Below are positions 11,072-33,248 of a DNA stretch of 64,000 nt, piece after piece. A program made the position numbers and the translations under genes. Each line of letters starts with the position of its first letter. Position 1 is the first letter of the stretch. Source of the DNA: Pseudomonadota bacterium (GTDB taxonomy: Bacteria > Pseudomonadota > Alphaproteobacteria > GCA-2746255); NCBI GenBank assembly GCA_040752895.1, contig JBFMHN010000003.1, forward strand, positions 219,501 to 283,500. Direction: 5' to 3'. Below the pieces are notes generated by a model. It worked only from the letters and a program-made list of their open reading frames with translations, had not been told where the DNA came from and ran no database searches.

Positions 11072-12331
11072 TTATTCGGCAGGGACCCGTTGCTCGGCCT
11101 CGGACGCCGCCCGGTTCGGGCTCTCTCCCGCCGCGTCGTTTCGGCTCCTCGCACGTCGCTTCGCGCTCGATTTTCTTCCGAGCATCGCGGCGCCGATCGC
11201 GTCCGACACTCGCCCGGCGGCTGATTTCACCGGGTCATTTGCCAGATGCGCATAGCGCGCGGTGGTCTGCACCTGGGTATGCCCGAGCAACTTGCCGATC
11301 ATCGGCAGCCCCTCTCCCAAGGCGAGGGCACCGCTGGCATAGGAGTGCCGGAGGTCATGAATGCGCACGTCATCGAGGCCGGCTTTGGCTCGGATGCGCC
11401 GCCACGGGTGCTGCAGGTCGGTCAGGCGGCTGCCCTGCTTCTTGCCGGTGATGACGTATGGGTTGTCCTCCAGCTTCTCGATACCCTTCAGCACGTCGCG
11501 AGCCATCTTTCCGAAGTGCACGATCTTGGCCCCGGTCTTCGAGTCGGGCAGGCGCAGCTCGCGGGCTTTGAGGTCCACATAGTCCCATTTGAGCGTCATG
11601 ATCTCGCCGAGCCGGCAGCCAGTCAGCATCAGGAGCCGGATGGCATCGACGGCCGACTGGGTTTCGGAGCCGTCCGCCTCGACCTCGCGGAGTACCTTGC
11701 CCAGCGCCGCGAACTCATCGGGGCTGAGGAAGCGCTCGCGCCTCTGCTCGGGATATTTCTTCACGTGCAGGCAGGGGTTGCTGCCATCAGGGCGCAAGCC
11801 CCATACCTCGGCGAGGTTGAACATCTTCGACAATACGCCAAGGGTGCGGTTGGCCTGATAGGGAATGTGGCTGAAAGAATGATGCAGTTCCGCAACATCG
11901 CGGCGCTCGATATCCGTCACCTTGCGGGTGCCGATCTTGGGGTTGATGAACAGCTCAACCGACCGCTTGTATTCCGCCTGGGTGCTTAGTTTGCACCGCA
12001 CCTCGACATGCTCCTTGAGGAACCGCTCGCCCAGCCCCTTCACGGTCGGTGCCTTGCGCGCCTGATCCTGTTCCTTGGCGGGGTCGCGACCGGCCTTCGC
12101 TTCCGAGATGATTTCATGGGCACGCACGCGGGCCTTCTCAGCCGTGATCGGGCCATGGGGGCCGATGGTGATCTTACGCAGCCGTCCCTTCACGCGGCTC
12201 ATCACGAGATACACCTTCCGGCCTGTCGGCCAGACTCTGACGCCGAAGCCGCGCAGTTCGTCATCCCAATGGATGGTGTCGGTTGAACCAGGCGCGATCT
12301 GGTCCACTGTGCGCTTCGTCAATCTCGGCAT
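11072..12331 (-). CDS. Tyrosine integrase (DUF4102-type) of the left element
   Basis: A 419-residue phage/genomic-island integrase. The N-terminal DUF4102 domain (about 1-85) is followed by a SAM-like core-binding domain and a catalytic domain with TGCRLGE (Arg), HDLRHSY (HxxR) and TTARYAHL (nucleophile Tyr). I chose the ATG at 12331 because GGAGG lies about eight bases upstream; an in-frame ATG at 12343 is possible. Such integrases target tRNA 3' ends. Its N-terminal end lies 199 bp from an initiator-tRNA fragment at 12530-12574, the probable attachment site of the trb element. The C-terminal tail after about 385 is basic and probably disordered. Confidence 0.93.
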   Translation of the reverse strand: MPRLTKRTVDQIAPGSTDTIHWDDELRGFGVRVWPTGRKVYLVMSRVKGRLRKITIGPHGPITAEKARVRAHEIISEAKAGRDPAKEQDQARKAPTVKGLGERFLKEHVEVRCKLSTQAEYKRSVELFINPKIGTRKVTDIERRDVAELHHSFSHIPYQANRTLGVLSKMFNLAEVWGLRPDGSNPCLHVKKYPEQRRERFLSPDEFAALGKVLREVEADGSETQSAVDAIRLLMLTGCRLGEIMTLKWDYVDLKARELRLPDSKTGAKIVHFGKMARDVLKGIEKLEDNPYVITGKKQGSRLTDLQHPWRRIRAKAGLDDVRIHDLRHSYASGALALGEGLPMIGKLLGHTQVQTTARYAHLANDPVKSAAGRVSDAIGAAMLGRKSSAKRRARSRNDAAGESPNRAASEAEQRVPAE

Positions 12332-12529
12332 CGAACCCTCCATCGCCGCGCTTGTGACATTCAACCTGAAAGTCCGCGCAGGTAACACATAGGTAACAGA
12401 TGAGTGCCAATCGGGTGCGATTTGAGGGTAGCGAGATCGCAGGGCATGTCAATAGAAACCGTTTAGATATAGTATGTTAGGTGTGTTCAGCGAAAATGAG
12501 CGAAAATGGTTCGGAGGCGATTTTTCTGA

Positions 12530-12574
12530 CTCATAACCTGAAGGTCACAGGTTCAAATCCTGTCCCCGCAACCA
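12530..12574 (+). repeat. att site: 3' half of an initiator-Met tRNA
   Basis: The 45 bases from the anticodon loop (CTCATAA, anticodon CAT) through the T-arm (ACAGG / CCTGT around TTCAAAT) to CCA match the 3' half of an alphaproteobacterial initiator tRNA. The 5' half is absent: no TGCGGGG acceptor strand lies upstream. It is therefore a duplicated attachment site, not a functional tRNA. It lies between the left tyrosine integrase and the serine recombinase, whose last codons it encodes on the minus strand. Confidence 0.8.
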
Positions 12575-14204
12575 ACTTTGTAGACTTGACGGAAAAGTCG
12601 CTCTCATCGAGCGGCTTTTTCGTTTTTGCGGCAAGGCTCAGGATGCCCGCGAGGTGACCGTGAAGGTCGATTGCGAGCGTCTCCTTGCCGTCCTTGGTCA
12701 CGGGGGTCAGGACGACCTTTTCCACGAGCGAGCGGACTACGTCCACGGCCTCGCCTCGACGGCTTTCGTCGCTGAGGGCCTCGTGAAGCTTGGCCACCTG
12801 GCTGCGATAAACTTCCGCCATGTTCGGGTGGATAAGGACAGGTTCGTCCTCGCTTTTGCCGAGCTTGGCCTGTAGGTCGGCCTTCTCGTTCTCCAATTCC
12901 CACATCCGGTCCTTCACTTTGGCGGCCGGGATGCCGTCGCAAATGGCGTCGATCATCTTGTCCAGCTCGCGGTCGATTTTGGCGAGCCGCGCCGTCATGC
13001 CGGTCCGCGCCGCATTGTGTTCCATGCGGAGTTTATTTAGGTGCCGCGTGTACTCCTCGCAGAAGACCGCGAAAAGCTCCGGGTCCATTAGGTGATGGCG
13101 GAGGCCGTCCAGTATGGTCGCTTCGATCTCGTCGCGCCGTAGGGTGCGGGTATTGTCGCAAGTCCCCTTGTTCCGAGCAGAGGCGCAGCCTGCCCGGTGC
13201 ATGTTGAGATTCACGACGCCGCCGCCGCAGACGCCGCACTTAATGAGGCCGGAAAACAGATGGCGCGGACGACGACGGTCCCAGTAGGCCGCTTCCTGCT
13301 TGCCGTTCTTGGCTTCGGCCTTCGTGTAAACACGCAGTTCGCCTTGGCGCACTTTCACGCGCTCCCAGAGCTCCTGCTCGACAATCCGAAAATCAGGAAC
13401 GTCCTGCACAATCCAGTTGGCCTCCGGATTAAGGCGCGAAACGCGCTTTCCGGTCTCCGGGTCCTTGATATAGCGCAGGCGGTTCCACACCAGCCTTCCG
13501 ATGTAGAGTTCGTTATTCAGAATGCCTGTGCCGCGCTGGCGGTTGCCGTGAATGGTGGACGGCCCCCAGGCTTTGCCGGCGGGAGCGGGCACGTTTTCGG
13601 CATTAAGCCGATGCGCGATAGTGCGCGGTGACTCGCCGTTGGCGTATTCCTCAAATATGCGGACGACGGTAGCCGCCTGGGCTTCGTTGACCGTGCGGTC
13701 GCCCCGGATCGGCTCGCCCATTTCCGTGAACTTGCGAACGACATCGTAGCCGTAAGAATTGCCGCCGCCGGATTTTCCGGCTTCGACACGGCCGCGTAAG
13801 CCTCGCCGCGTCTTGTCGGCAAGGTCCTTAAGGAAGAGCGCGTTCATCGTGCCCTTCAAGCCGATATGAAGATCGTTCACGTCGCCTTCGGCAAGCGTGA
13901 GGATCTTCACGCCCGCAAAACTAAGACGCTTGTAAATGCCGGCGATGTCCGCCTGATCGCGGGACAGGCGGTCTAATGCTTCAGCGATGATGACGGAGAA
14001 GCGCCCGGCCATAGCGTCTTGAAGCAACATTTGAATGCCGGGACGCAGTAACGTTGCACCGGACTGCCCGTGGTCTGTGTAGCAGTTATAGACCTTACAG
14101 CCTTCCTTATCGGCGCGCTCCTGGCAGATGCGGATTTGGTCCTCGATTGAGGCCTCGCGCTGCATGTCCGTTGAATAACGTGCGTAGATGGCAACTTGCG
14201 TCAT
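12531..14204 (-). CDS. Large serine recombinase
   Basis: A 557-residue recombinase. The N-terminal resolvase domain starts VAIYARYST with the nucleophile Ser at residue 11. It is followed by a recombinase domain (about 165-270), a zinc ribbon (CGVCGGG ... GCASARNKGTC, about 325-350) and a coiled coil. The last 14 residues, LVAGTGFEPVTFRL, and the stop codon are the reverse complement of the tRNA fragment at 12530-12574, so the gene ends inside an attachment site. The start overlaps the small upstream gene by ATGA. It is a candidate for moving the 12.5-46.6 kb element. Confidence 0.93.
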   Translation of the reverse strand: MTQVAIYARYSTDMQREASIEDQIRICQERADKEGCKVYNCYTDHGQSGATLLRPGIQMLLQDAMAGRFSVIIAEALDRLSRDQADIAGIYKRLSFAGVKILTLAEGDVNDLHIGLKGTMNALFLKDLADKTRRGLRGRVEAGKSGGGNSYGYDVVRKFTEMGEPIRGDRTVNEAQAATVVRIFEEYANGESPRTIAHRLNAENVPAPAGKAWGPSTIHGNRQRGTGILNNELYIGRLVWNRLRYIKDPETGKRVSRLNPEANWIVQDVPDFRIVEQELWERVKVRQGELRVYTKAEAKNGKQEAAYWDRRRPRHLFSGLIKCGVCGGGVVNLNMHRAGCASARNKGTCDNTRTLRRDEIEATILDGLRHHLMDPELFAVFCEEYTRHLNKLRMEHNAARTGMTARLAKIDRELDKMIDAICDGIPAAKVKDRMWELENEKADLQAKLGKSEDEPVLIHPNMAEVYRSQVAKLHEALSDESRRGEAVDVVRSLVEKVVLTPVTKDGKETLAIDLHGHLAGILSLAAKTKKPLDESDFSVKSTKLVAGTGFEPVTFRL

Positions 14205-17605: not shown

Positions 17606-17915
17606 TAACTAAATCAGTCACTTAGCGGAAATTATTGGAAAGAAATCGGCCCTTCGGGGCCGTTTTTGCCACAAAAATCCTGACCGCGCTAACCCGCATG
17701 AATCCGCCATTCTCTTCTTCGATCCGTTTCGGCTTGTGGCAAATCTGTGGCGCGAGACTGCGACCCCTTGCATCACATGCCATAGCCATTCCGCGCGTTT
17801 TCGCTTGAGCGAAACGTCGGCCGCTTGATGCCCTGTGGCAACGTGAGTCCTGTTCTTCATCTCCTGTTTGGCTTTCCTCAATTTAAGCGCTTCTCCTAGC
17901 CAGACGCGCCGTCTG
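17606..17915. other. Non-coding stretch after tRNA-Pro fragment
   Basis: No convincing gene. A 100-residue open frame on the minus strand here has no family features and no good start. The stretch holds the second copy of the 21-bp repeat (17734-17754) and GGCCCTTCGGGGCC at 17649-17662, a hairpin followed by GTTTTTG that may act as a terminator. Confidence 0.5.
17734..17754 (+). repeat. 21-bp direct repeat, copy 2
   Basis: Exact copy of 17501-17521. It lies in non-coding sequence downstream of the tRNA-Pro fragment, followed by CGACCCCTTGCAT. See copy 1 for interpretation. Confidence 0.7.
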
Positions 17916-17970
17916 GTCAATGCCCGGCCCGCACCACTCCCGCTTTAGGCGAGACCGTGTTGGGCATGAC
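17916..17970 (+). promoter_or_regulatory. Structured leader element, copy 1 (upstream of ardC)
   Basis: This 55-nt element begins GTCAATGCCC and ends TTGGGCATGAC, giving a 9-bp outer stem with one bulged A. Inside are CGGCCCGC and CCGTGTTG, shared with copies at 25220 and 25813, and a weak inner hairpin. It lies 68 bp upstream of the ardC start. Compared with copies 2 and 3 the stem has a C-G pair where they have G-C, a compensatory change. Confidence 0.65.
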
Positions 17971-18037
17971 CCTCCGTCTCCTCCGTCTGGCGATCCGTTT
18001 CCGCGCTTGAGGAAACCCAATCGACAGGAGACGGAAC

Positions 18038-18952
18038 ATGACACTCAACAATTCCAATCGGCAGGACGTTTACGCCCGCGTCACGAACAAGATCATCGCG
18101 GAACTCGAAAATGGCGTGCGACCGTGGATCAAGCCCTGGAGCGCAGACCACGCCGCAGGAAAAATCACGCGCCCGCTTCGCCACAACGGCCAGCCTTATT
18201 CCGGCATCAACATCCTGATGCTCTGGGCCGCCGCAATGGAGCAAAGCTATGCTGCGCCAATTTGGATGACCTTCCGCCAGGCGACTGAACTTGGAGCCAA
18301 TGTCCGCAAGGGCGAAAAAGGTTCCCTTGTCGTTTATGCCAATACGCTCACCCGCACCGAAGAGGGTGACAACGGCGAAGAGACTGAGCGTCAAATCCCG
18401 TTCATGAAGGGCTATACCGTGTTCAACGTCGAGCAAATCGACGGCCTGCCTGAGCACTACTACAGCAAGCCAGCGCCTCGTCCTGACTTACCGCTGCGTA
18501 TTGAACACGCTGAGGGCTACTTTGCGGCTCTGAAGGCCGACATCCGCCACGGCGGCAATCGTGCCTACTACTCCATTAGCACCGACCATGTGCAAATGCC
18601 GTTCTTTGAGACGTTCCGCGATGCCGAGAGCTACTACGCCACACTCGCCCACGAAATGACGCACTGGACCCGCCATAAGGCGCGTCTCGACCGCAGTTTC
18701 GGTCGCAAGAGCTGGGGCGACGAAGGCTACGCGCGCGAAGAACTCGTTGCCGAACTCGGTTCCGCGTTCCTCTGTGCCGACCTCGATCTCACGCCGGAAA
18801 TTCGCGATGACCACGCGTCCTATATCGCGAGTTGGCTTGAAGTGCTGAAGAACGATAAGCGCGCGATATTCTCCGCTGCTGCTCATGCCCAGCGTGCCGT
18901 CGATTACCTGCATAAATCCCATTCATCCATAGACGAGGAGGCAGCGGCTTAG
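18038..18952 (+). CDS. ardC: ArdC-like antirestriction protein
   Basis: A 304-residue protein with an N-terminal ssDNA-binding domain (DUF1738/ArdC-N, about 1-130: DVYARVTNKIIAELENGVRPW ... GINILMLW ... ATELGANVRKGEKG) and a C-terminal zincin-like domain with HEMTHWT (HExxH) and a distal EELVAELGSAFLC. ArdC proteins protect incoming single-stranded plasmid DNA from host restriction during transfer. GGAGACGG lies before the ATG. Its leader carries the structured element at 17916-17970. Presence of an antirestriction gene fits entry by conjugation. Confidence 0.92.
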   Translation: MTLNNSNRQDVYARVTNKIIAELENGVRPWIKPWSADHAAGKITRPLRHNGQPYSGINILMLWAAAMEQSYAAPIWMTFRQATELGANVRKGEKGSLVVYANTLTRTEEGDNGEETERQIPFMKGYTVFNVEQIDGLPEHYYSKPAPRPDLPLRIEHAEGYFAALKADIRHGGNRAYYSISTDHVQMPFFETFRDAESYYATLAHEMTHWTRHKARLDRSFGRKSWGDEGYAREELVAELGSAFLCADLDLTPEIRDDHASYIASWLEVLKNDKRAIFSAAAHAQRAVDYLHKSHSSIDEEAAA

Positions 18953-19026
18953 TGCCGCTGCTTTCCTTCAATTCTGCGCGTCAATTTTCTTGACGGATGT
19001 GCTCTCGCCACGTTTGGATGGCGGCC

Positions 19027-19347
19027 ATGAAAATCCTGTTCGTCTGCACCGCCAACAAGCTCCGCAGCCCAACCGCCGAAGCTGTGTTTGCTGAGTATCC
19101 CGGACTTGAGGTGCGCTCGGCAGGGCTTGACCCACAGGCCCCAAAACCGCTGACCGCCGAACTGGTTGCCTGGGCCGACCGGCTGCTTGTCATGGAGCAG
19201 CGACATCGTGATGTCGTTCGTAAGCGCTTCCGGCAGGAGCTCGACGCGCGGCCGGTCATAGTGCTCGGCATCCCCGATGATTATGAGTTCATGCAGGAGG
19301 AGCTGGTCACCCTTCTGAAGGAGCGCGTGCCGCAGTTTCTCGATTGA
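19027..19347 (+). CDS. Low-molecular-weight protein tyrosine phosphatase-like protein
   Basis: A 106-residue protein starting MKILFVCTANKLRSPTAE, which holds the phosphatase P-loop CTANKLRS (Cx5RS) at residues 7-14, and a GIPDDYEFMQ segment near the end with the general-acid Asp candidates. It matches the short COG4551-type predicted tyrosine phosphatases rather than the 150-residue classical LMW-PTPs. It lies downstream of ardC with its own short leader. Substrate unknown. Confidence 0.82.
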   Translation: MKILFVCTANKLRSPTAEAVFAEYPGLEVRSAGLDPQAPKPLTAELVAWADRLLVMEQRHRDVVRKRFRQELDARPVIVLGIPDDYEFMQEELVTLLKERVPQFLD

Positions 19348-19374
19348 CTTCGATAACATGCTTTCCCAAAAAAA

Positions 19375-19408
19375 CCGGGACAGGGAGATTTTAGCTTCCC
19401 TGTCCCGG
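19375..19408 (-). terminator. Rho-independent terminator
   Basis: A perfect 12-bp stem, CCGGGACAGGGA (19375-19386) with TCCCTGTCCCGG (19397-19408), is followed on the minus strand by seven T residues. It ends transcription of the membrane protein gene at 19421-20746 and may also act weakly on the phosphatase gene from the other side. Confidence 0.88.
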
Positions 19409-19420
19409 CTTCATTTCGAA

Positions 19421-20746
19421 CTAACGCGCGCCGTTTAGGTGTCTGCTCCATTCGTCCTCATCGAAAGCCGAGAGGCCGGGCGGATCAGGTAGTTTCGCCG
19501 CTAGCGGTGCGGGTGCCGGCCCGTCCGCCTGCAAAGCCGGGGGCTTAGTGTTTGCCATACTGGTCTGGCCTGCCTTCGTCTGCTCCAGTGCAAGCAGCAC
19601 CTTACGCACCTGCCCGAACGACATACCGTCAACATCCGGGTCGGTCGGCGGTGGTTCTGCCTCAGCATGATAGAGAAGCATCAGCAGCAGAACGAGTACC
19701 ACCGGCATCAGATCAAGACCAACACCACCCGCCCAGTACGGCAGCAATTCATCGGCATAAAGTACGACCGCTTTTGACGGAGCTAAACGTTCAAAAGCGA
19801 GCGGCTCTGTGCTTGCGGCTTTTCCCAGTTCGGCCGCCGTTGCCGCAATTCTGTCGCCAGTACCTGACAGATCGCTCGCCAGGCGTTGCAGCGCGTCGCC
19901 TTGCGCCGTGGCTACGCTCTTGTTGTTCGACATCGAGTTGAATAACCCTGTGCCACCGGACAAGCTGCGAACTGAGCGGGAAACAACAGAAGCCAGTTCG
20001 CCGCCATTCAACGTGCCGACAATTTTCGCCACCTTGGCGGCTTCGGCGGCAAAGGCCGTATAGCGTTCAGCGATAGCTCCTTCCGTCGTGACAAGCGATG
20101 CCATTGCCGTTATCGCCGCTTGGCCCTGCGTATACAGACCCTCGACCTGGCCATTACGGCTCTTGATCATTGCTGAAAGATCAGACAGCGCCTTGCGCGA
20201 GGTCTGAAGGCTGTCGGCAACGCCGCCCGCACCAGCAACGCCTGTCAAAGTGCCCTGACGGGCCTCGCGGTCAGCAAGATTTCCGTAGCGAACTGCCGCT
20301 ATGTCGAGGTCTGCCGCAAGAGACTCTATGCCTTTTGCCTGCTGATAGGCTGTTTGCAGGGCGGTTTCATAGTCCTTGATGCTGTCGCGCATGTGGGCCG
20401 TGAGTGCGCCGGCACCGGCCAACGCCATCACGTTCATCCAACAGCTCAGGCACAGGATGAACATACCGCCCAGGCCGATGATACCCATGCCGAGCCAGCG
20501 GTTTCTGGCCGTCCTCATGGTTGGCACGATGCCCATTACATAGCGCCAGAACACAAAGATCATTGACGACACGCCCAAGGAGAACACAGCGGCCGAAACG
20601 CTGAAGCCGCCTTGAGTGCTGGATGAATCAAGAACCATGACCGCGCCCTCATAGGTGAAGTAGGCGCTGACGCTGCTTAAGATGAACAACACGGTGTCCG
20701 TTACCTTGCGATTGTTGCGCAGAAAAGTTTCGATGGAGTAGTTCAT
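19421..20746 (-). CDS. Multi-pass membrane protein with long coiled middle, unknown
   Basis: A 441-residue protein with three membrane helices near the N-terminus (about 17-37, 48-72, 86-112), a long Ala-rich periplasmic or cytoplasmic helical region (about 118-330), one helix at about 340-362 and a Pro-rich C-terminal tail. No family was recognised. It is preceded by the 17-bp CGAGGAA motif (20815-20831, minus strand) 69 bp before the start, as are the TraG-like and MobC-like genes, which suggests it belongs to the transfer regulon. Confidence 0.75.
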   Translation of the reverse strand: MNYSIETFLRNNRKVTDTVLFILSSVSAYFTYEGAVMVLDSSSTQGGFSVSAAVFSLGVSSMIFVFWRYVMGIVPTMRTARNRWLGMGIIGLGGMFILCLSCWMNVMALAGAGALTAHMRDSIKDYETALQTAYQQAKGIESLAADLDIAAVRYGNLADREARQGTLTGVAGAGGVADSLQTSRKALSDLSAMIKSRNGQVEGLYTQGQAAITAMASLVTTEGAIAERYTAFAAEAAKVAKIVGTLNGGELASVVSRSVRSLSGGTGLFNSMSNNKSVATAQGDALQRLASDLSGTGDRIAATAAELGKAASTEPLAFERLAPSKAVVLYADELLPYWAGGVGLDLMPVVLVLLLMLLYHAEAEPPPTDPDVDGMSFGQVRKVLLALEQTKAGQTSMANTKPPALQADGPAPAPLAAKLPDPPGLSAFDEDEWSRHLNGAR

Positions 20747-20814
20747 GGTGACCTGCCTTTCAGCCCGGCCATTCCGAGCATGAAGAGCAGGCTACGGAGG
20801 ATTCGCCGCGCTCT

Positions 20815-20831
20815 TCCTCGCACGTTCCTCG
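20815..20831 (-). promoter_or_regulatory. CGAGGAA-type 17-bp motif, copy 2
   Basis: On the minus strand this reads CGAGGAACGTGCGAGGA, one base different from copy 1. It is 69 bp upstream of the start of the membrane protein gene at 20746 and points the same way. Confidence 0.6.
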
Positions 20832-20834
20832 TGC

Positions 20835-20870
20835 AAAAAAGAGAGGCGGAGGACATTTCTATCCTCCGCC
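20835..20870 (-). terminator. Rho-independent terminator
   Basis: GGCGGAGGA (20845-20853) pairs with TCCTCCGCC (20862-20870), a perfect 9-bp stem with an 8-nt loop, followed on the minus strand by TCTCTTTTTT. It ends the two-gene transcript 22064-20896. Confidence 0.82.
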
Positions 20871-20895
20871 TTCCTCGAAGAGGCCGACCAGATGG

Positions 20896-21354
20896 TCAAA
20901 AGTATCGATTGCGATAATCTACAAGTCTGCGCAAGGCCAACTGCGCTCGGTCCCAGGAGTCAAATCTGGGAATGAGATTAATGCCAATGAAGCCTGAATT
21001 CGAAGCATCGCAATAATCTATTGAGCTTGCCCGATAGGTCTTTCGACATCCCGGACAATAGTGCTCTAACGCGCCGGTCGTCATGCACGACTGGAAACCG
21101 CATTTGTCACACTGAAAAATAGTCGTGTTGTCACAATAGGCGCAGCGGAGAGAGTCTGGTTCGCCTTTGAAAGGGACATCTATTCGCGCTTCCCGATCCT
21201 TTTTCTTGCGCCGTTTCAGCAAGAATTCATGATACCGAAACGGCAATTTCTCAACGCTCGTGACAAGTGCGGAATCATTCGTCACGCGAATGTTGCGAAT
21301 GAACGAATAGTCGGCGACCCGGCTGCACAAGATGATTTGTTTGAGGTCTTTCAT
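20896..21354 (-). CDS. Zinc-ribbon protein, unknown
   Basis: A 152-residue protein with a cysteine-rich zinc-binding region at about residues 70-103: CAYC ... CDKCGFQSC ... YCPGCRK, which resembles the TerY-C type metal-binding domain. The N-terminal 65 residues and C-terminal 45 are not recognised. It lies 14 bp after the membrane protein gene at 21369-22064 and is probably cotranscribed with it. Confidence 0.7.
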   Translation of the reverse strand: MKDLKQIILCSRVADYSFIRNIRVTNDSALVTSVEKLPFRYHEFLLKRRKKKDREARIDVPFKGEPDSLRCAYCDNTTIFQCDKCGFQSCMTTGALEHYCPGCRKTYRASSIDYCDASNSGFIGINLIPRFDSWDRAQLALRRLVDYRNRYF

Positions 21355-21368
21355 GACATTTTCTCCTG

Positions 21369-22064
21369 CTACATCGGAATCCGGCCAGCAGACTTGCTCC
21401 GGTATTGAAAGCGCGGGTCTACGACCGGACCGTTGCCCGCCCCAGTGCGGCCCTTCATAATTTGAATGGCGGCATTTATGGCATTGGCGATCGCTTGGGC
21501 ATCCTTCAGCCCGTAGATGCTTCCAAGGGCCTGTGGGCCAAGTACGGTCTCCAGCACGAGGTCCATGCAGTAGGGCGAGAAATATTCCGGGTTTTTCTTT
21601 TTGCGCTTGTCGCGAAACTCTTTGTCCACACGTTGTTGGTCCACACGGTAGAGATGGACGCCAACTACGGTGTTCATGTCATAGTCGTAAGTGCCATCGG
21701 GGCGCTTGACCGTCAGTGCTTTCGACGTGACCGTCAGCACCCGCGTCTCGCGGACGAGCCATTTGATGATCCAGTCCAAAATGGGTGCGATGATGAAAGC
21801 GGAACTAAAGACCCAGTACCCAGCTCCTGGAACGTGCGGGTCCAGAACGTTGAAAGCAATCAATCCGCAGATCAGTAAGCCAACAGCGCAGATCGTGGTA
21901 TACAGCTCGTAGTTTGTTTTGCTCTCAAAAGAGTCCGCCGTCGCATCGACAACCAGGTGAGACAGGCGACCGTCTCCCCAGAACCAGCTTGAGATGTACT
22001 CGTTTCGGCCTACTTGCGGGGGCAGTTGCTCATATTTGACTTTCTTTCGGCGGAACAATTTCAT
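21369..22064 (-). CDS. Two-helix membrane protein, unknown
   Basis: A 231-residue protein with two adjacent membrane helices at about residues 56-76 and 84-102, flanked by a basic N-terminus and a soluble C-terminal half containing VRETRVLTVTSKALTVKRPDGTYDYDMNTV, like a PH-type domain. A degenerate form of the CGAGGAA motif lies on the minus strand at 22129-22146, about 65 bp upstream. Function not recognised. Confidence 0.7.
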   Translation of the reverse strand: MKLFRRKKVKYEQLPPQVGRNEYISSWFWGDGRLSHLVVDATADSFESKTNYELYTTICAVGLLICGLIAFNVLDPHVPGAGYWVFSSAFIIAPILDWIIKWLVRETRVLTVTSKALTVKRPDGTYDYDMNTVVGVHLYRVDQQRVDKEFRDKRKKKNPEYFSPYCMDLVLETVLGPQALGSIYGLKDAQAIANAINAAIQIMKGRTGAGNGPVVDPRFQYRSKSAGRIPM

Positions 22065-22134
22065 GTCGTCATGCCTCCGGTCAGGGGTTATTCTTTCCGG
22101 GGTATTGTCGACGATGGGGTAAGGGGCGTTCCGC

Positions 22135-23025
22135 GTGGATTCCTCGCGTGCAGATCAGCAGGTCCTGGACGGCTTCCGGCCGTGGCAAATTCAGCGGCTA
22201 CGAACGCGGTTGAGCCACTACCGCGCCAGCAAGCGGCACGGTTGGGAGCGCATCGCGACCGACATTCTGTTGGACGAAAAGCTGCCCACCTCTTATGTCG
22301 ATACCGAAGACGTGCGTCGGTTTTCGGAATCGCTTCGAAGGTTCGACAGCGGGTCCCAGACCCCAAGCGCGGAGCGGTTGAATGCCGTCAAGACTTTTCT
22401 GATAGGTCAGGGGCTACTTCGGCCTGAAGAAATGGAGGAGAAGGGCGACGCGAACGCCGCGCCTCTCGCTTTTACCGAATTCGCTGCAAGAGGCGTTCCG
22501 GGGTACAAGGCTATACAAGCGCAATTCACCAGAGACCTTCCGGGAACGTATTTTTGGACGGAGCGCGAAGAAGGCCGCTTTTCTGTCAAAGAACTGGTGC
22601 TGTCACAGGACGGTACGATATTGACTGTCAGTCTTAGCGATACAATTTATGCCGACCCGAAGGGCCAGCTTACGGCGGCGCAAAACAGAAACCGGCGCTC
22701 AAGAGCAGCCATTAGCGAATTTAACTGGTCGGGCTGGGCGGCGATATTTTCTGAGCGGCAGGTCGTTTTTATGTTGCGTGACGCACATTATAATTCACCC
22801 GGCACCTGCTACCTGCTCTATGCCATAGAAAAGCATGAAGGAGACGGGAAGGAGGCCCGCAAACTGCTCTTGTTGCCGTATTCGGGAAAGCAGACATTCA
22901 CGAACTTTGACGCCATTGCATTTCCGTCTCAGCACAGGTCGTCTATTTCAGTCACTGACCTCTTCAAGACGGCCATACCGCGCGGTTTCACAATTTATAG
23001 CAGGGAGAACGCAGATGGCCGGTAA
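22135..23025 (+). CDS. Unknown protein
   Basis: A 296-residue soluble protein starting at a GTG (MDSSRADQQVLDGFRPWQIQRL). The N-terminal 80 residues include GWERIATDILLDEKLPTSYVDTEDVRRF, which looks like a helix-turn-helix or similar helical DNA-contact region; the rest contains alternating beta strands. No family recognised. The last 11 bp overlap the next gene, so the two are cotranscribed. Confidence 0.65.
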   Translation: MDSSRADQQVLDGFRPWQIQRLRTRLSHYRASKRHGWERIATDILLDEKLPTSYVDTEDVRRFSESLRRFDSGSQTPSAERLNAVKTFLIGQGLLRPEEMEEKGDANAAPLAFTEFAARGVPGYKAIQAQFTRDLPGTYFWTEREEGRFSVKELVLSQDGTILTVSLSDTIYADPKGQLTAAQNRNRRSRAAISEFNWSGWAAIFSERQVVFMLRDAHYNSPGTCYLLYAIEKHEGDGKEARKLLLLPYSGKQTFTNFDAIAFPSQHRSSISVTDLFKTAIPRGFTIYSRENADGR

Positions 23026-23455
23026 TGACCCCATCGATAATGCGTCGCCCGAAAGCGCGACACTTCGAGAAGATATTCAGATCGGCTCCGGCTTTCGCCC
23101 GGTGCGCGATCCAATCCAGAAATTTTTCACGGCAGTTGTTTTGGGGGACATGAAAGCACTCCAGAACGAATACGCAGATATGGGCGACAATATAAACATC
23201 AAGGAGTCGGAAACGAAATCGACCGCGCTACACTACGGTGCGGCGTATCGGTCGCGCCCCGTCATAAAGTGGCTCATCCGATTTAAGGAACTCGATTATC
23301 TGGTGCGCGATTACAAGGGTCGCTTACCGTCCGTTCTTGCTTATGAAGTGGCAAACGATCCTGCACTTGGTCGGTTTCTCGCCAAGAAGGAAAACGAGCA
23401 GGCGCGGGCGCGCGGCATCGACATCCGCACACTTTTTGCCCCGTCGCCGAACTAA
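23015..23455 (+). CDS. Ankyrin-repeat-like small protein
   Basis: A 146-residue protein starting MAGNDPIDNASPES, with GGGAGAACGC before the ATG at 23015. The segment KSTALHYGAAYRSRPVIKWLIRFKELDYLVRDYKGRLPSVLAYEVAND has the TALHYGA / VIKWLI pattern of one to two ankyrin repeats. It probably mediates a protein contact with the upstream partner. It converges on the TraG-like gene with a 4-bp overlap of stop codons. Confidence 0.65.
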   Translation: MAGNDPIDNASPESATLREDIQIGSGFRPVRDPIQKFFTAVVLGDMKALQNEYADMGDNINIKESETKSTALHYGAAYRSRPVIKWLIRFKELDYLVRDYKGRLPSVLAYEVANDPALGRFLAKKENEQARARGIDIRTLFAPSPN

Positions 23456-24995
23456 TCGTATTTGCCCGCAAACCACTTAAATCCAGCACTTGCCGGGTCG
23501 AAATAGCGCACGCGTTGCAAAACCATCGGCGCAACATCCGGCCATATAACGAGTTCGCGACGCATTGAATCGGTGCGCGCGAAGTACATCATGAGTTCAT
23601 CCGGCGTCATTAGGCGATGCATTTCCTTCCCGAAGACCTGCACGGCGTTGCCATCACGCATTTCTGTACGGCTCGTATCGACCGGCGTACGGCCCAGACG
23701 CCGGGATAAATACTCAGCCGTCGTCCAGTCATTTATAGCGAAAGCCTGTACGATACCCGCATTGGCCATGAAGGTTTCCCAGCGATTGCCATAAAGGTCC
23801 TTGAGCTGGTTGAAGTCCTGCACAATCGTCCAAAGCTTGATGTGATAGGGATCGCCCGCGACGAGACCCGCCGCCGTCTGGATAATGTTTAATTTGCCGA
23901 TTGCGGCTGCAAATTCGTCCAGGGCAACGAGCACCTGGACGCCGGTTGCGGGCACGCCGCGCACCTTTTCCATCTCGCCGAAGAATTGGTTGATCATCAG
24001 TCGGAACCAGCGATGGCAGAGCCCAAGCCGTCCCGACGGCAGGCATAGATATATAGTCACGCCGTTTCGTTTCGTTTTTACATCCCGCAAGGTGAAGCTA
24101 TGGCCGGATACGACTTTCCGGATGCCGCCATAGGACAGGAAGCGCGTATGCCGTCGCACCGTAGAGAGAACGCTGCCACGTTCGTTGACACCCTTGTCAT
24201 AGAAGTCCCGCGCCGCGCCTTTGATGGCGCTCGCTATCACGCACCCCGGATCGCGCGCGAACAATAGCTCCGCCGTTTTCATCATTTCGCGGTCGAGCGC
24301 GGCAATAGGATCGCCAAAAGCGTCCACTTCACCGGGGAGGGGAGTGAGGGCCTCCTTGATTTTTCCATCGACTGTGATGAGCGTCCGCTGCCCCTTAAAT
24401 TGTGGAGCAACGGCCACATGTAGAATAAGCCCCTCAATGAAGTTGCGGGCGGACTCATCCCAATGTGGGTCCTTCTCATGGCCTGATGTGGCAACCATCG
24501 CCTCGGCAACGCGCCCGCATCCTCAATGATGCTCGCACTGTACGGCGATAGGATGGCCAGGGGATTGAACTGGGCACGCCGCATCGCTGCGTGACCACTC
24601 GTAATCTCGAAGGGGTCTAGAACATATACGTCCTGGCCCATTTCCATCCGCCGTCGGGCTGTTCTATTTGCAAGTTCGCCCTTTATGTCCGTGCATATGA
24701 CGCTGGCGGTTGTGCAGAGGAGATTGGCCGTCAGCATGACCGACTTGCCGGTCTGAGAGCCGGCCACCGTCAATACATGCCGGGGGTCTTCGATACCGAT
24801 CAGCTTCGGACCAAGGGCTCCCACCAGTATCTTGCCGGCCGGGTTTTGAGGCGCATAAGCCATAGCGTTGCTGGCGACGATGTCCGTCGTTTCCGCCCAT
24901 GTCGCTTGCGGGGCAGTCTGTTCGCTCATCAGCACTGAATGCGTGCCGCGAGGCAACTCTGACTCAAACGCCGTGACGAATTGTTCCCTGCTCAT
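23452..24995 (-). pseudogene. traG: TraG/VirD4-like coupling ATPase, frameshifted
   Basis: Two overlapping frames make one protein of about 514 residues. The first (24995 to about 24514) has the Walker A motif GSQTGKS and IKGELANRTARRRMEMG; the second (about 24514 to 23452) continues RVAEAMVATSG and includes VLVALDEFAAAIGKL (Walker B) and VQDFNQLKDLYG. One base is missing near 24511-24516 (GGGCGC where GGGCCGC would restore the frame). The protein lacks the N-terminal membrane helices of classical VirD4. The coupling protein would bring DNA to a T4SS. Either the gene is dead or the assembly has a single-base error. The CGAGGAA motif lies 56 bp upstream. Confidence 0.85.
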
Positions 24996-25050
24996 CGCAT
25001 AAGACCCTTTTCGAGTGTCCTTGCTTTGTAGCCCGCGCTGTTAGGGACGA

Positions 25051-25067
25051 TCCTCGCTCATTCCTCG
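25051..25067 (-). promoter_or_regulatory. CGAGGAA-type 17-bp motif, copy 3
   Basis: Reads CGAGGAATGAGCGAGGA on the minus strand, 56 bp upstream of the TraG-like start at 24995, in the same orientation. Confidence 0.6.
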
Positions 25068-25219
25068 CCGTTCGCCGGAAAGTCCGCGCCTATTTCAATG
25101 CACTTGAGGTATCGGGTGTTTCTTCCGTCCGCGTCCGTGTCTTCATTCCAGCCCATACCCATTAAGCCGTGTAGCAAACGGCCCGTTCGCAAGCTCACTC
25201 GGGAATGCCCTGACGGCGC

Positions 25220-25277
25220 GTCAATGGCCGGCCCGCTCCATTCGCCCCGCAAGCGGGGCTCCCGTGTTGGCCATGAC
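25220..25277 (+). promoter_or_regulatory. Structured leader element, copy 2
   Basis: A 58-nt element with outer stem GTCAATGGCC / GGCCATGAC (nine pairs, one bulged A), the shared strings CGGCCCGC and CCCGTGTTG, and a strong inner hairpin GCCCCGC AA GCGGGGC. A further hairpin CCCGC / GCGGG follows. It lies 75 bp upstream of the gene at 25352. It occupies most of the 350-bp gap between traG and that gene. Confidence 0.65.
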
Positions 25278-25351
25278 TCGTTCCCGTCCGCCCGCAAAAC
25301 GGCGGGTAAGGCTGGAATGGGTCCAGCCGCTTAAAACGAAAGGAAACTACG

Positions 25352-25594
25352 ATGACTACTCAAATGACTGAAACAAACAACGGCGCAGACACCGCTAACG
25401 GCCAGGCCAATCGGCCCACGATGATCGCAAAGCAGCGTGTGGGCTTCGGCAAGAAGGCCACCTACGAACGGATCGGCGTTGCCTGGAACAACGAAGACGG
25501 CTCTCTCTACGTCAAAGTGCATGGCACGCAGGTTATCAGCGGCGGCTTCGTTCTCTACCCCATTGAGAGCGACAGCGAAAAGGCGGGGGAATAA
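25352..25594 (+). CDS. Small beta-rich protein, unknown
   Basis: An 80-residue protein, MTTQMTETNNGADTANGQ, with a disordered N-terminus and a core KKATYERIGVAWNNEDGSLYVKVHGTQVISGGFVLYPIE of short strands. It resembles in style the small DUF736-like proteins of mobile elements but is not one. AAAGGA lies before the ATG. The structured leader element copy 2 precedes it. Confidence 0.6.
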   Translation: MTTQMTETNNGADTANGQANRPTMIAKQRVGFGKKATYERIGVAWNNEDGSLYVKVHGTQVISGGFVLYPIESDSEKAGE

Positions 25595-25812
25595 CCCCGC
25601 CACCCGCGCCCAAACGCGCTTCAAACGGCCCCGGCCTGACCGCCGGGGCCGCTTTGCTGTTCTCACTGCTACGGCTGAAGACCTTTACTTGGCTTCAGGC
25701 CGGTTCTCCGTCGTGCTTGTGTTGCAACGCATCAAAGCTCAGCCCATTTTCGGCCCCCGTTCGTGTGTTCGTCCCTTATCCGGACCGCGACTGTTGCGGA
25801 CGCCGCCTCGCC

Positions 25813-25865
25813 GTCAATGGCCGGCCCGCGCCAGCTCCCTGACGGGAGCCCGTGTTGACCATGAC
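25813..25865 (+). promoter_or_regulatory. Structured leader element, copy 3
   Basis: A 53-nt element, outer stem GTCAATGGCC / GACCATGAC (eight of nine pairs), CGGCCCGC and CCCGTGTTG, and an inner hairpin GCTCCC TGAC GGGAGC whose sequence differs from copy 2 but pairs perfectly. A UUCG-type hairpin GTCC TTCG GGAC follows at 25900-25911. It lies 75 bp upstream of the gene at 25941. Confidence 0.65.
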
Positions 25866-25940
25866 GGCAGCGGCTTAAACCGTCCGCGCCTTCGTTCGCG
25901 TCCTTCGGGACGATTAACAACGAACGAAAGGAACTAAAAA

Positions 25941-26500: not shown

Positions 26501-26611
26501 CCTTAACGCTTACAACGTTAGAATTAACGTAAGGCTGGAGGGCTTTCTGATTGAGTACAAGGTGTGCGTGGTACTACCACGCCCACCTTGCTGAGGGGAC
26601 ATCCTGTCCCC
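26501..26611. other. Candidate oriT core with nic-like site
   Basis: An AT-rich nested dyad (ACGTTA GAAT TAACGT at 26515-26530, inside CCTTA / TAAGG) is followed by a hairpin GGGGACA TCC TGTCCCC at 26595-26611. The loop region holds CATCCTGT (26600-26607), which fits the YATCCTGY nic core known from IncP and VirD2-type origins. It lies about 370 bp upstream of a MobC-like and a relaxase gene. Assignment as oriT is inferred. Confidence 0.5.
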
Positions 26612-26677
26612 CGCAGGCCCCCCTTGGTCTCCCTAAGCTCATAGCGCCGTTTAACGTCGTCTTCGCTAAGGGAGATA

Positions 26678-26907
26678 TGCGGCGACCATTGGTCATTCGT
26701 GACCATCGAGGTCACGTCGCCGCAGGCACCGTTCCGGCGGTGCATCCCGGCCAGGGAGATTGCGGCTCTCCCTGGACCCATCCGGCGAAAGGGCTTGTCG
26801 CGCCCTTTGCAAACCGCGACCAAGGCTTTCGCGCCCTGGACCACGACCAAAGGGAGACTTCGCCTCTCCCCTTGGAGCCCCATGGACCAAGGTATGCGCG
26901 ACCTTGG
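26678..26907. repeat. Hairpin array upstream of mobilization genes
   Basis: Seven hairpins follow in 230 bp. A nested one (26678-26724) has stem TGCGGCGAC / GTCGCCGCA and inner TGGTCA TTCG TGACCA. Then GCACCG / CGGTGC (26726-26743), CCAGGGAGA / TCTCCCTGG (26751-26775), AAAGGGC / GCCCTTT (26788-26808), CCAAGGC / GCCCTGG (26820-26839, one mismatch), CCAAAGGGAGA / TCTCCCCTTGG (26847-26875, one mismatch) and CCAAGGT / ACCTTGG (26887-26907). Most loops are 6-7 nt. No gene is believable here, although both strands are open in several frames. Confidence 0.75.
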
Positions 26908-26924
26908 ATACGCGCCCGCACTGA

Positions 26925-26941
26925 CGAGGAATGCGCGAGGA
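26925..26941 (+). promoter_or_regulatory. CGAGGAA-type 17-bp motif, copy 4
   Basis: Reads CGAGGAATGCGCGAGGA, 34 bp upstream of the MobC-like start at 26975, same orientation. It directly follows the hairpin array. Confidence 0.6.
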
Positions 26942-26974
26942 GGAACCGGCATCGAAGCCTTCATAAGAGGTGGC

Positions 26975-27325
26975 ATGTCGGACGAAACGAAAAATAAGCG
27001 CGAAGCGCCCATTTCCTACCGTCCCCCGCAGGAATTGCGGGAGGAGTTTCATGCCCGCGCCAAAAACTCCGGCCTCTCGGTTTCAGCTTTCATTACCGCT
27101 TCGGTTTTTGGCCAGACCGCCCCTCGTAGCCGGAAAAAGCCGCCTATCGAAAAACGTGACCTCGTCCAGCTTCTCGCCAAATGTGTAGCTATTCATGACC
27201 AGCTTTCGCGCTTTGACCTGAAGGGCAAGGACAACCCCGAGATCGCGGCCACGCTGGAAGATGCTCGGCGGGATCTCGGTGAACTGCGCGCCGCCTGTTT
27301 CAAGGCCCTCGGGAGGACGCCATGA
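26975..27325 (+). CDS. MobC-like/ribbon-helix-helix mobilization protein
   Basis: A 116-residue protein starting MSDETKNKREAPISYRPPQELREEFHARAKNSGLSVSAFITASVFG. The strand-helix-helix pattern followed by a helical tail is typical of MobC-type relaxosome accessory proteins that bind oriT. AGAGG precedes the ATG at 26975; the open frame further upstream crosses the hairpin array and is not taken. The stop overlaps the relaxase start by 4 bp. Confidence 0.82.
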   Translation: MSDETKNKREAPISYRPPQELREEFHARAKNSGLSVSAFITASVFGQTAPRSRKKPPIEKRDLVQLLAKCVAIHDQLSRFDLKGKDNPEIAATLEDARRDLGELRAACFKALGRTP

Positions 27326-28994
27326 TCCCGTTTGCCTCCCAACGCGGCGGCGGCCAGGACCTCGCCACCCATCTTCTCAATGCCCAGGACAATGAGCAGG
27401 TGGTTTTGGCCCATTTGCGCGGTGCCATTGCCCAGGATTTGCACGGGGCGCTCGCAGAATGGGAACTCCAGGCCGATACGCTCACCAATTGCCGCAATTA
27501 TCTCTACAGCCTCTCCATCAATCCCGATCCGCAACAGGGCAAGCTATCGACCGAGCAATATCTCGACTATGTCGCCCGTGTCGAAGCGGCCCTTGGCCTC
27601 TCCGGTCAGCCGCGGGCGCTCGTTCTGCATGTCAAATACGACAGGCCCCATGTTCATGCCGTCTGGTCTCGCATCGACGCTGACTCCGGCAAAGCCATTC
27701 ACATGGCCTTCGACCATGAAAAACTCATGAAAGTTACGCGCCAGTTCGCGCGTGAGCATGGCATCACCTTGCCGGATGGATATTCCCGTGACGGCGATGG
27801 CCCCGACAAAGCAGGGCAGCTCACTCTTTATGAGAAACACCAGCAGGACACGACGGGTCTGACCAAAGAGCATCGTATGGAGGTTGTGACCGACCTCTGG
27901 CGAAATAAAGAGTCTCCGTCCGCCTTCGTACGCGCCCTCGGTCAAAACGGCTACATGCTGGCGACGGGCAAGCGGCCTTATGTGCTTGTTGATGCGTACG
28001 GCAATACCCATGCCTTACCCAGGCTTATCAACGACAAGAACGTCCGCTCAAAGGACGTAGCGGCTTTTTTAGGTAAGGAGTTCCCGCCTGAATCACTTCC
28101 CTCCGTCGAAGAGGCGAAGAAGCTCGCGGCCGACCATCTTAAGAAGATGGAGTCCTTCGATAAGAAGAAAATAGTTGATGAAAAGACTCCCGAAACGAAG
28201 ACCCGCGAGGCGAGGCGGCGCAAAGTCATCCTGGACAAGATTCAAGAAATGAAAACCCGTCAGCTCGATCAGAAGCGCAAGCTTGAGGCGTTTCAACAGA
28301 AGCGGCGTATGGCGCTAAAGGTCCGCTACATGAAGGAGGTCAAGCGCGTAAAGACACAGCGCGAGAAGACCAAAGCCACGGGCCTTGCGGCTTTCCTCGG
28401 TCGCGTTACCGGCATTGATAAAGTGATTCGTAAAGTCCGCCGCGTGCGTGACCGTATCCGCTTTGAAAAATACAAGACGCAAGTTCAGACGCTTGAGAAG
28501 AAGCAGGCGCAGCAATTGTCGATCCTGCGTGAACGCCATCGTATGCAGTTGCTCGACATCCGCCGGCAGGTCAGAGCCGTCAACAAAGTTGAGAAGCGGG
28601 AAGCCAAATCCCGGAAAACAACAAAACTCCGGGAGCTTCGGCTGGAGCAGCGCGCGCGCCGAGACATCGATCATATGCCGTCCATCGATATGAAGAGCTA
28701 TCAGGCGGTTCGGACCAAAGTCGTCAAGGGTCAGGCCGCTGCAAAAGATACGAGGAACGCGCTCCCGTTCAGCCGCCCTCAAAATCCCGCAGTCTCGATG
28801 ACTGGCGCGGCGGTCTGGTGCGCCTCACCGATCTCTTTGATCGTGCGAGCAAGGGTGAGAAAGAAGAGGGTAAGGACGGCAAAGAGTCTTTTGGAGAACT
28901 GCTGCCGAAGCCAGCGCCCGTTTTGAGACCGAAGACGCCCGATGAGCTACGGCGGAAACGCGAGCGGGACCGCGATAACGGCCGCTCGCAGTGA
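27322..28994 (+). pseudogene. Relaxase/mobilization nuclease, frameshifted near the C-terminus
   Basis: The N-terminal domain (about 1-260) has LHVKYDRPHVHAVWSRID, the histidine motif of MOB relaxases, and a likely nucleophile Tyr among NYLYSLSINPD. The rest is a long Arg/Lys-rich coiled coil. The frame shifts near 28751: the conceptual product continues in another frame as QPPSKSRSLDDWRGGLVRLTDLF to a stop at 28994, and adding one G (ACGGAGG for ACGAGG) restores it. Without repair the protein ends at 28926 with an unrelated tail of about 45 residues. The catalytic domain is intact, so activity may survive. Relaxases nick oriT and pilot the strand into the recipient. Confidence 0.85.
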
Positions 28995-29051: not shown

Positions 29052-29079
29052 TACACAAATGTGTATCCATTGGTTACAC
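29052..29079. promoter_or_regulatory. TACAC/GTGTA operator before RHH gene
   Basis: TACACA AA TGTGTA (29052-29065) is a perfect dyad, and a third half-site TACAC lies at 29075-29079. The site is 10 bp upstream of a ribbon-helix-helix protein gene, so self-repression is likely. Confidence 0.55.
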
Positions 29080-29088
29080 TGATCAGCC

Positions 29089-29271
29089 ATGAAGGACGCA
29101 GGCCTCAGAATCCGCATTCAGCGCGAATTGCGCGAGCAGTTCCTGGAGGCGTGTCGTGTGCAGGACAAACCTGCCGCGCAGGTCTTGCGAGAATTCATAC
29201 GGGAATTCATCGAGGAAAACAAAAAAGAAGGTCGCCAGCATCAATCGAAAGACGATCAACCCAAGAGATAA
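29089..29271 (+). CDS. Small RHH-type regulator
   Basis: A 60-residue protein, MKDAGLRIRIQRELREQFLEACRVQDKPAAQVLREFIREFI, with a strand (GLRIRIQ) and two helices, the ribbon-helix-helix fold. It is the first gene of the plus-strand defence operon, 9 bp upstream of the helicase gene, and has an operator-like dyad just upstream, so it is probably the operon's repressor. Confidence 0.8.
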   Translation: MKDAGLRIRIQRELREQFLEACRVQDKPAAQVLREFIREFIEENKKEGRQHQSKDDQPKR

Positions 29272-29279
29272 GCCAATTC

Positions 29280-32200
29280 ATGCAAATCGTAGACAACATA
29301 AGCAATCTTCTTGGAGATGATATTCGCTCCTCTCTTCGCAAAGGATCGAAGCTGAAGATTGCGGCCTCGTGCTTTTCGATATTTGCCTACGAGGCGCTGA
29401 AGAAGGAGTTAGAGGCTGTCAGCGGCCTGGAGTTTATTTTTACAGCACCTACGTTCGTCCCAGAGGACGCCACAGACAAATTCCGCAAGGAGAAGCGGGA
29501 ATTCTTTATTCCCAAGGTGCAGCGTGAGCGCAGTCTTTACGGCTCCGAGTTCGAAATTCAGCTTCGAAATAAGCTTACACAGAGAGCTATCGCGCGTGAG
29601 TGTGCAGAGTGGGTGCGCCGAAAGGCGATTTTCAAGTCCAACAAGACGAAAGCGCCGATGCAGCAATTCGTTTGCATCGACAATGGCGACGATCAGGTCG
29701 CCTATATGCCCGTTAATGGCTTCACCGCTGTTGATTTGGGACTCCAGAAAGGGAATGCAGTCTCAAACTTCGTAAACCGTTTTAACGGACCTCCATATAC
29801 AGCGACGTATTTGAACCTCTTCGACCAAATTTGGTCGGACCCGGAAAAATTGGAGGACGTTAGCGAAGCGATTTGCCAGCATATTGAAACCGTCTACCAC
29901 GAGAACGCTCCAGAGAGGATTTACTTCCTCGTTCTATACAACTTGTTCAAAGAGTTTCTGGAGGAAGTCGATGAAGATGTCCTGCCTAATGACCGGACAG
30001 GGTATCTAGATACTCTGGTATGGAAAAAGCTGTTCAACTATCAGCGTGATGCTGCCACAGGCATCATCAATAAGCTGGAGACCTACAACGGCTGCATCCT
30101 GGCCGACAGCGTCGGGCTAGGTAAAACCTTCACTGCCTTAGCAGTGATCAAATATTACGAACTCCGCAATAAATCGGTGCTCGTCCTATGCCCGAAGAAG
30201 CTCGCGGACAATTGGCTCAACTTTAACAGCAATCTGAAAACAAACCTCTTCGCCAAGGACCGCTTCAGCTATGACGTTCTGTGCCATACGGATTTGTCCC
30301 GAACCAGTGGAGACTCATTCGGCATTCCGCTCAACCGCGTCAACTGGGGAAACTACGATCTAGTCGTAATCGACGAGTCACATAACTTCCGAAATAACGA
30401 TGTCTATAAAGACAAGGAGACCAGATACCAGAAACTCATGAATCAGGTCATTCGCGAGGGCGTAAAGACCAAGGTCTTGATGCTGTCCGCGACCCCCGTC
30501 AACAATCGCTTTATCGATTTGCGAAACCAGCTTGCGCTTGCCTACGAGGGGCAATCGGAAACGCTCAGCAAGAAGCTGAGAACGACGACCAGTATCGAGG
30601 AAATCTTTCGCAGGGCGCAGACCGCATTCAATCTTTGGTCGAAGCTCCCTCCGGAGGAGCGAACCGCCGCATCTATTCTAAAGATGCTCGACTTCGACTT
30701 CTTCGAGCTCCTGGATAGCGTCACTATCGCTCGGTCGCGCAAGCACATCGAGACATTCTACGACACCGTAGAAATAGGAAAATTCCCGGAGCGCCGAAAG
30801 CCGCTTTCGTTTCAGTGTCCCTTAACGGCGCGCAAAGACGTTATGACGCTCAACGAGATTGTCGGCCAGCTCACCTTGCTCAAGTTGGCAGTATACGCTC
30901 CGCTTAGTTACATCTTGCCCAGTCGCGTTGGAAAGTACGAAGCCCTCTATGACACAGAGGTTGGAGGTGGTCGAGGGCGGCTCAAGCAGGCAGATCGCGA
31001 ACGAAGCTTGCAAGCTCTGATGACAACAAACTTGTTGAAGCGGCTTGAAAGCTCAGTTGAGGCCTTTCGTCTTACTCTCCGCTCTTTGAAGAAAAACCTG
31101 GCAGGTACCTTGGACGCTATCGCTGATTTCGAGCGTTCGGGCGGAGAGCTTGAGGTTTCCGACTATACGGCCAATGCTGCCGACTTCGATCCAGACGATG
31201 ACGATCTAAGCGGCTTGGGGGATTTTACGGTCGGCAAGAAAGTGCGGATAAGTCTCGGGGATATGGATGTTCAGTCCTGGCAGCACGACCTCAAAAGCGA
31301 CTTGGCTATTATTGATGCCTTGTTGGCATCGATGGACATGATCAGACCGAATGACGACGCCAAGCTTCAACACTTGAAGGCGCATATCCGAAAAAAAATC
31401 AGTGCACCGATCAATCCTGGAAACAGAAAAATTCTGATTTTCACGGCGTTCGCCGATACGGCGAATTATCTCTATGCCAACATTTCCGACGAATTGTTCA
31501 AGGGAAAAGGGCTGAGCACCGCAAGAGTCACCGGTTCCGACGCGCCAAAGACGACGCTTAAGAAGAGCTACGATTTCCAATCTATCCTGACGTTGTTCTC
31601 GCCAAAATCAAAAGAAAAGGCACTAATCCTTCCTGACGACGACAACGAGATAGATATTCTTATAGGAACGGACTGCATTTCCGAAGGCCAGAATCTCCAG
31701 GATTGCGACTATCTCATTAATTACGACATTCATTGGAATCCCGTCAGGATCATTCAGCGCTTTGGCCGAATTGATCGCATCGGATCACCAAACGCTCAAA
31801 TTCAACTCGTCAACTATTGGCCTGATATTTCGCTCGACGAATACATAAATCTCAAGGAACGCGTCGAGAATAGAATGATGATCGCCGACGTGACCGCCAC
31901 CGGCGACGACAATGTTCTAACTGCCAAGAGCAGCGAAATTGCGTACCGAAAGGAACAGCTCAAGCGTCTTCAGGAAGAAGTCATTGAGTTGGAGGACGTG
32001 AAAACAGGCGTATCCATCACAGACTTAGGCCTCAATGATTTTCGGATGGACCTGCTGAACTACGTCAAGGAGAACGGCGATCTGGAAAGTATGCCCAACG
32101 GTCTGCACGCGGTAGTCCCGGCCGATAAAGATATTGGCTTGCCGTCCGGCGTTATTTTCGCCCTCCGCAACATTCATGACGGGGTGAATATCAACCAACA

Positions 32201-33232: not shown

Positions 33233-33248
33233 GAAGGTTGGTGTGGCG

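Follow-up and report, generated by a model that had tools for sequence, protein, structure and literature searches.

Long template-strand hairpins before antirestriction genes on alphaproteobacterial mobile elements are candidate single-stranded DNA promoters

The window, a 64,000-nt stretch of an alphaproteobacterial contig (JBFMHN010000003.1), carries three copies of a structured repeat, which stand before ardC, a small gene and the MGLDMYAY gene, respectively; neither of the latter two genes has a match in Pfam or NCBIfam. All three copies point towards a relaxase gene that lies beyond an oriT-like inverted repeat and a gene for a NikA-like mobilization protein (Table 1). The coupling-protein (T4CP) gene (23452-24995, minus strand) is split between two overlapping ORFs (23452-24498 and 24282-24995), so that it looks frameshifted in the window copy. 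Directly after the small gene is a strong GC hairpin, CGGCCCCGGC..GCCGGGGCCG (25606-25655, plus strand), which is terminator-like and lacks a T run. By eye, a HipA-like protein and its helix-turn-helix partner (9322-10897, minus strand) adjoin an integrase (11072-12388) and a serine recombinase (12531-14204), while a large helicase-like ORF (1164 aa) and the DNA methyltransferase-like ORF after it (29061-35159, plus strand) look like a restriction or defence locus adjoining the mobilization genes.

Table 1. Features of the window connected with the repeats. Full hairpin extents are approximate and are upper bounds.
Feature	Position	Strand	Remarks
Hairpin 1, full extent	17852..18037	-	outer helix TTTCCTCAA/TTGAGGAAA
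Copy 1, conserved hairpin core before ardC	17916..17970	-	folding strand is the bottom strand
CATTGAC, putative -35-like box of copy 1	17916..17922	-	also 25220-25226 and 25813-25819
ardC (ArdcN + zincin-like metallopeptidase)	18038..18952	+
Hairpin 2, full extent	25132..25351	-	outer helix ATTCCAGCC/GGCTGGAAT
Copy 2, conserved hairpin core before small gene	25220..25277	-
Small gene, 80 aa	25352..25594	+	commonest partner family (52 copies)
Hairpin 3, full extent	25747..25940	-	outer helices CGTTCGT/ACGAACG and CGTCCC/GGGACG
Copy 3, conserved hairpin core before MGLDMYAY gene	25813..25865	-
MGLDMYAY gene, 121 aa	25941..26306	+	recurrent partner family (11 copies)
oriT-like inverted repeat AAGGTGTGCGTGGTA/TACCACGCCCACCTT	26558..26650		followed on the right by a conserved GGGGA..TCCCC block
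NikA-like mobilization protein	26699..27325	+	below Pfam cut-off
Relaxase (MobA/VirD2-like)	27322..28926	+	all three elements point towards it

The preliminary description of this DNA had reported the repeat at the three core positions, and both the sequence and a pattern search bear this out: CGGCCCGC followed after 12 to 32 nt by CCGTGTTG matches three times in the window, always on the plus strand, against 0.00 matches expected from 100 shuffles, and in the host genome these three are the only matches that have the TCAATG prefix. The outer stem reads GTCAATGCCC/GGGCATGAC in copy 1 (17916), GTCAATGGCC/GGCCATGAC in copy 2 (25220) and GTCAATGGCC/GACCATGAC in copy 3 (25813). The exchange of ATGCCC/GGGCAT for ATGGCC/GGCCAT is a true compensatory change, as had been proposed for a C-G pair becoming G-C, and at the same stem copy 3 has a C.A mismatch that the first account did not mention. 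The inner hairpin, said to pair in two copies, shows good pairing in copies 2 and 3 and weak pairing in copy 1, and the measured distances from element to gene of 68, 75 and 76 bp are essentially the 68-75 bp originally given. Complementarity between the two arms continues outward as far as the neighbourhood of the start codon, and the three repeats are the conserved tip of hairpins of about 190 nt that fill nearly all of the DNA before the start codon.

A covariance-model search, as the preliminary description had suggested, was run with a first model built from nine copies and a second from 25, and revealed many more copies with pairing support, about 140 further ones in Alphaproteobacteria (about 144 located across the retrieved loci). 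Class-wide, 26 of 385 genomes had a match at E <= 0.01, several weaker matches being chance, while covariance searches found the element in 39 of 391 genomes from the order of genome G253 and in 43 of 347 from that of G191, orders which, judged by their plasmid relatives, look like Rhodobacterales and Rhizobiales. In a sample of the phylum, 13 of 349 genomes had a match, only two of these lying outside the class and both being weak. On plasmids, the element stands before ardC in Sinorhizobium, Dinoroseobacter, Leisingera, Phaeobacter, Roseobacter and Roseivivax, and before the MGLDMYA gene in S. sojae. In viral contigs a pattern scan found no copy, and in those that encode ArdC a regex scan gave no convincing one; on the strength of these scans a phage element was rejected.

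Covariation of the paired positions is very strong in this family. Watson-Crick pairs are present at stem positions 2-5 in 67, 78, 66 and 62 of 81 copies, where shuffling gives means of 37, 36, 41 and 33; four types of pair are seen at positions 2 and 3, and three at positions 4 and 5. Sequence conservation sits mainly in GCCCGCNCC and CCGTGTT of the internal loop and in the TCAA of the 5' arm. Anchored two-arm alignment, in which G.T and A.C were penalised equally, scored 56.8 versus 32.1 for shuffled arms. On the 5' side the pairing reached about 76 nt, on the 3' side about 79 nt; the median distance to the start codon was 82 nt. Being greedy, the alignment runs on into coding sequence if permitted, so that these outer limits are upper bounds. 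A variant without the bulge, GTCCGGCC/GGCCGGA, occurs at loci L190, L191, L193, L194, L228 (9566), L229 (12115) and L234 (12031), with no convincing gene at the usual distance, and may have a longer leader or have lost its gene.

The elements always lie in the direction of the gene that they precede, at a tight distance from its start codon, and often several are found on one mobile element. Their partners form a restricted set: a small 78-aa family, which includes the gene after copy 2, accounts for 52 copies, ArdC for 27, DUF2958 for 19 and MGLDMYA for 11, with ArdA (7), DUF3768 (2) and a methyltransferase-like gene identified by eye (1) being rarer. The suspected link to antirestriction or early-entry genes is upheld. 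The ArdC of plasmid R388 is required in the recipient only (PMC7213743).

The strand that folds was examined by counting helix-internal wobbles on the mRNA strand of 79 non-redundant copies. When a structure is maintained in one strand, G.U (or G.T) is tolerated in that strand and A.C is not. With one flanking pair required per side, the mRNA strand showed 130 A.C and 35 G.T, and under stricter flanks the ratio was 65:12 (two pairs) and 28:4 (three pairs), whereas control pairings between arms of different copies gave 237:213, 64:57 and 15:17. The excess of A.C was seen whichever way the relaxase was oriented, over the entire length of the hairpin and in all gene families that contributed more than a few counts, and its sign was the same in 55 copies against eight; the associated p-values (5e-14 and less extreme) overstate independence because the copies are related by descent. 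As the models used for searching were derived from the top strand, any preference they had would be for G.U there, so that this bias is conservative. Because A.C on the mRNA strand, which is G.T on the opposite one, exceeds G.T nearly fourfold, it is the bottom (template) strand that folds. Deamination of an exposed bottom strand could account for part of the excess, which would still require that strand to be exposed. Folding energies calculated with DNA parameters agree, the bottom strand being more stable in 75 of 81 copies (mean -49.0 versus -43.4 kcal/mol); full hairpins were compared. In the apical part, GCGNAGC is present on the bottom strand of 19 of 81 copies and on the top strand of none (0.68 expected), and GNA triloops closed by C-G number 26 on the bottom strand versus one on the top, with all four bases seen at N. 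RNA versions of GNA loops are much less stable than the DNA loops. On G-C stems, these loops are extraordinarily stable as DNA (PMC4686876).

The bottom-strand hairpin also holds a -35-like box, with TTG at the corresponding place in 81 of 99 copies; the second T of CATTGAC is there because of a conserved bulged base. Conservation decays about 17 nt past this box, which in copies inspected by eye is near the end of the lower stem, and no conserved -10 box was found past it in the folded strand. Lacking a -10 consensus, any mechanism beyond folding is one that we infer. An ordinary top-strand promoter made up of -35 TTGAC and -10 CGGCTTAA was rejected by inspection, the spacing being only about 14.

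Orientation relative to the transfer genes was analyzed in 73 element-relaxase pairs. This revealed the relaxase downstream of the element in 66, with 35 of these sharing the strand of the element and 31 convergent, the convergent pairs belonging almost entirely to the small-gene family. In the usual oriT layout, a convergent relaxase would mean that the top strand is the transferred one. Three loci have a clearly recognisable oriT with an inverted repeat, L059, which we take to be of RSF1010 type, and L060 and L012, presumably of T-border type, and in all three it is the transferred strand that folds, with the element 3-5.5 kb into the leading region. At L206 and L171, nic-like sites accompanied by an inverted repeat point instead to the top strand, and the oriT-like block of the window, common to L189, L215, L184, L227, L160 and L230, could also be read as top-strand transfer. 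We suggest that the folded strand would be the transferred one in most elements. The nic consensus YATCCTGY was rejected as a marker when alone, being too frequent by chance, and nic-like sites were then considered only with an adjacent inverted repeat; several of them resemble coding palindromes. Within the element itself, ATATCCTGCCCGC, which is close to this MOBP consensus, occurs with an inverted repeat nearby at L203 (9980-10027), L212, L187 and L188 and is lost in most other copies.

The single-stranded DNA promoters characterised so far are mostly those of F- and ColIb-P9-related plasmids of enterobacteria. In Frpo, the transferred strand folds and so rebuilds promoter boxes (PMC9849209; PMC11541004). 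The hairpins described here resemble Frpo1 and Frpo2 of plasmid F and ssi3 of ColIb-P9 in that a long imperfect template-strand hairpin precedes establishment genes with antirestriction partners, which point to oriT and the relaxase. They also share with Frpo1 and Frpo2 the stabler fold on the bottom strand, which for the plasmid F hairpins is -97.9 versus -87.9 and -94.6 versus -86.7 kcal/mol, respectively. They differ in being about 190 nt long rather than about 300-400 nt, in having one recognisable conserved core and no -10 box that could be found, and in their occurrence in Alphaproteobacteria, not enterobacteria. No sequence relation to Frpo was detected, the best match of model R2 in the F leading region being at chance level (E 0.12). 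The same model has a weak match at the same place upstream of both Frpo copies (locus L255, 10182-10214 and 15571-15603; 10.1 bits, E 0.34, not significant), a repetition that is possibly due to chance because those copies are similar. STAXI, a structure with covariation close to genes for antirestriction, SSB and integrase, for which the authors thought single-stranded DNA possible (Weinberg 2010, PMC2864571), is a tandem pseudoknot, unlike the single long hairpin of this family. By analogy, integron attC sites might also be compared, but the hairpin copies are tied to start codons and are not in arrays.

Strong covariation, a position 5' of genes and a conserved internal loop would all suit the cis-regulatory RNA in an mRNA leader, riboswitch-like or protein-binding, that the preliminary description had proposed, and Rfam leaders such as radC likewise place structured sequence before genes of mobile elements. 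The comparison with Rfam that it had recommended, however, gave no match, whether at gathering score or at E values of up to 5, the 130:35 excess of A.C and the lower stability of the top strand in 75 of 81 copies identify the wrong strand for such a leader, and the hairpin extends almost to the start codon, so that we give this reading very little credence. An antisense RNA transcribed from the bottom strand would account for folding by that strand, but the enriched loops are of the kind that is hyperstable as DNA, which argues against it, many unrelated genes show this arrangement, and a simple scan around copy 1 found no promoter- or terminator-like site; we regard it as improbable to a high degree. 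Inverted repeats and the nearly invariant core GCCCGCNCC ... CCGTGTT could be expected if a dimeric protein bound here to duplex DNA, a proposal that we find scarcely credible given that stem sequences swap freely while pairing is kept and that strand asymmetry is meaningless for duplex DNA.

The evidence for a folded bottom strand made of DNA is equally compatible with a single-stranded signal that has another job, whether it starts the complementary strand (ssi or sso), is recognised by a relaxase or recombinase, or is bound by one of the element's own single-stranded-DNA-binding proteins, such as ArdC. The absent -10 box and the resemblance of ATATCCTGCCCGC in some Rhodobacterales-type copies to a MOBP nic site speak for it, as does the priming of replication by Frpo (Masai and Arai 1997, as cited in PMC11541004). 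The nic-like string, however, is lost in most copies because stem bases swap, and the tight distance to the start codon, the restricted gene set, the direction of the genes and the presence of several copies per element are better suited to a promoter; we therefore consider another job unlikely, if well worth weighing. Also arguing for a promoter are the strand and loop evidence, the TTG of the -35-like box, the partner genes, the recipient-only requirement for the ArdC of R388, the relaxase downstream in 66 of 73 pairs, the oriT loci L059, L060 and L012 and the strand preference of Frpo1 and Frpo2. Counting against it are the lack of a -10 box, the 31 of 73 relaxases that are convergent, the nic-like sites of L206 and L171 that point to the top strand, the oriT-like block of the window, which could be read likewise, and the want of any sequence relation to known Frpo. 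On balance we favour, with moderate confidence, the reading of the repeats as single-stranded DNA promoters of the Frpo/ssi kind on conjugative and mobilizable elements of Alphaproteobacteria. In such a model, the element would enter a new cell as a single strand, the template strand of the downstream gene would fold into the hairpin of about 190 nt, and this would provide a double-stranded stretch with the -35-like TTGAC, from which RNA polymerase could start and thereby allow ArdC, ArdA and other establishment proteins to be made before the second strand exists.

Our search of the literature, which covered open papers, found no description of this family, nor one of single-stranded DNA promoters in Alphaproteobacteria. 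A published large search for such promoters used BLAST to five known Frpo/ssi sequences together with the TTGACA/TATAAT consensus (PMC11541004), and would probably miss this hairpin family. The A.C versus G.T helix test is simple and could serve to tell folded DNA from RNA among other candidate structured RNAs. Somewhat more cautiously than for the promoter reading itself, we lean towards the view that alphaproteobacterial conjugative elements have their own class of single-stranded DNA promoter, unrelated in sequence to Frpo and recognisable by a single kind of hairpin, that drives establishment genes and can be used as a tag for new anti-defence genes, the unnamed 78-aa and MGLDMYA families among them. 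If true, this would be a second, unrelated family of single-stranded DNA promoters spanning several orders of Alphaproteobacteria, which would point to expression ahead of second-strand synthesis as a general means of outrunning restriction, and the hairpin would provide a sequence tag for unknown early-acting anti-defence genes.
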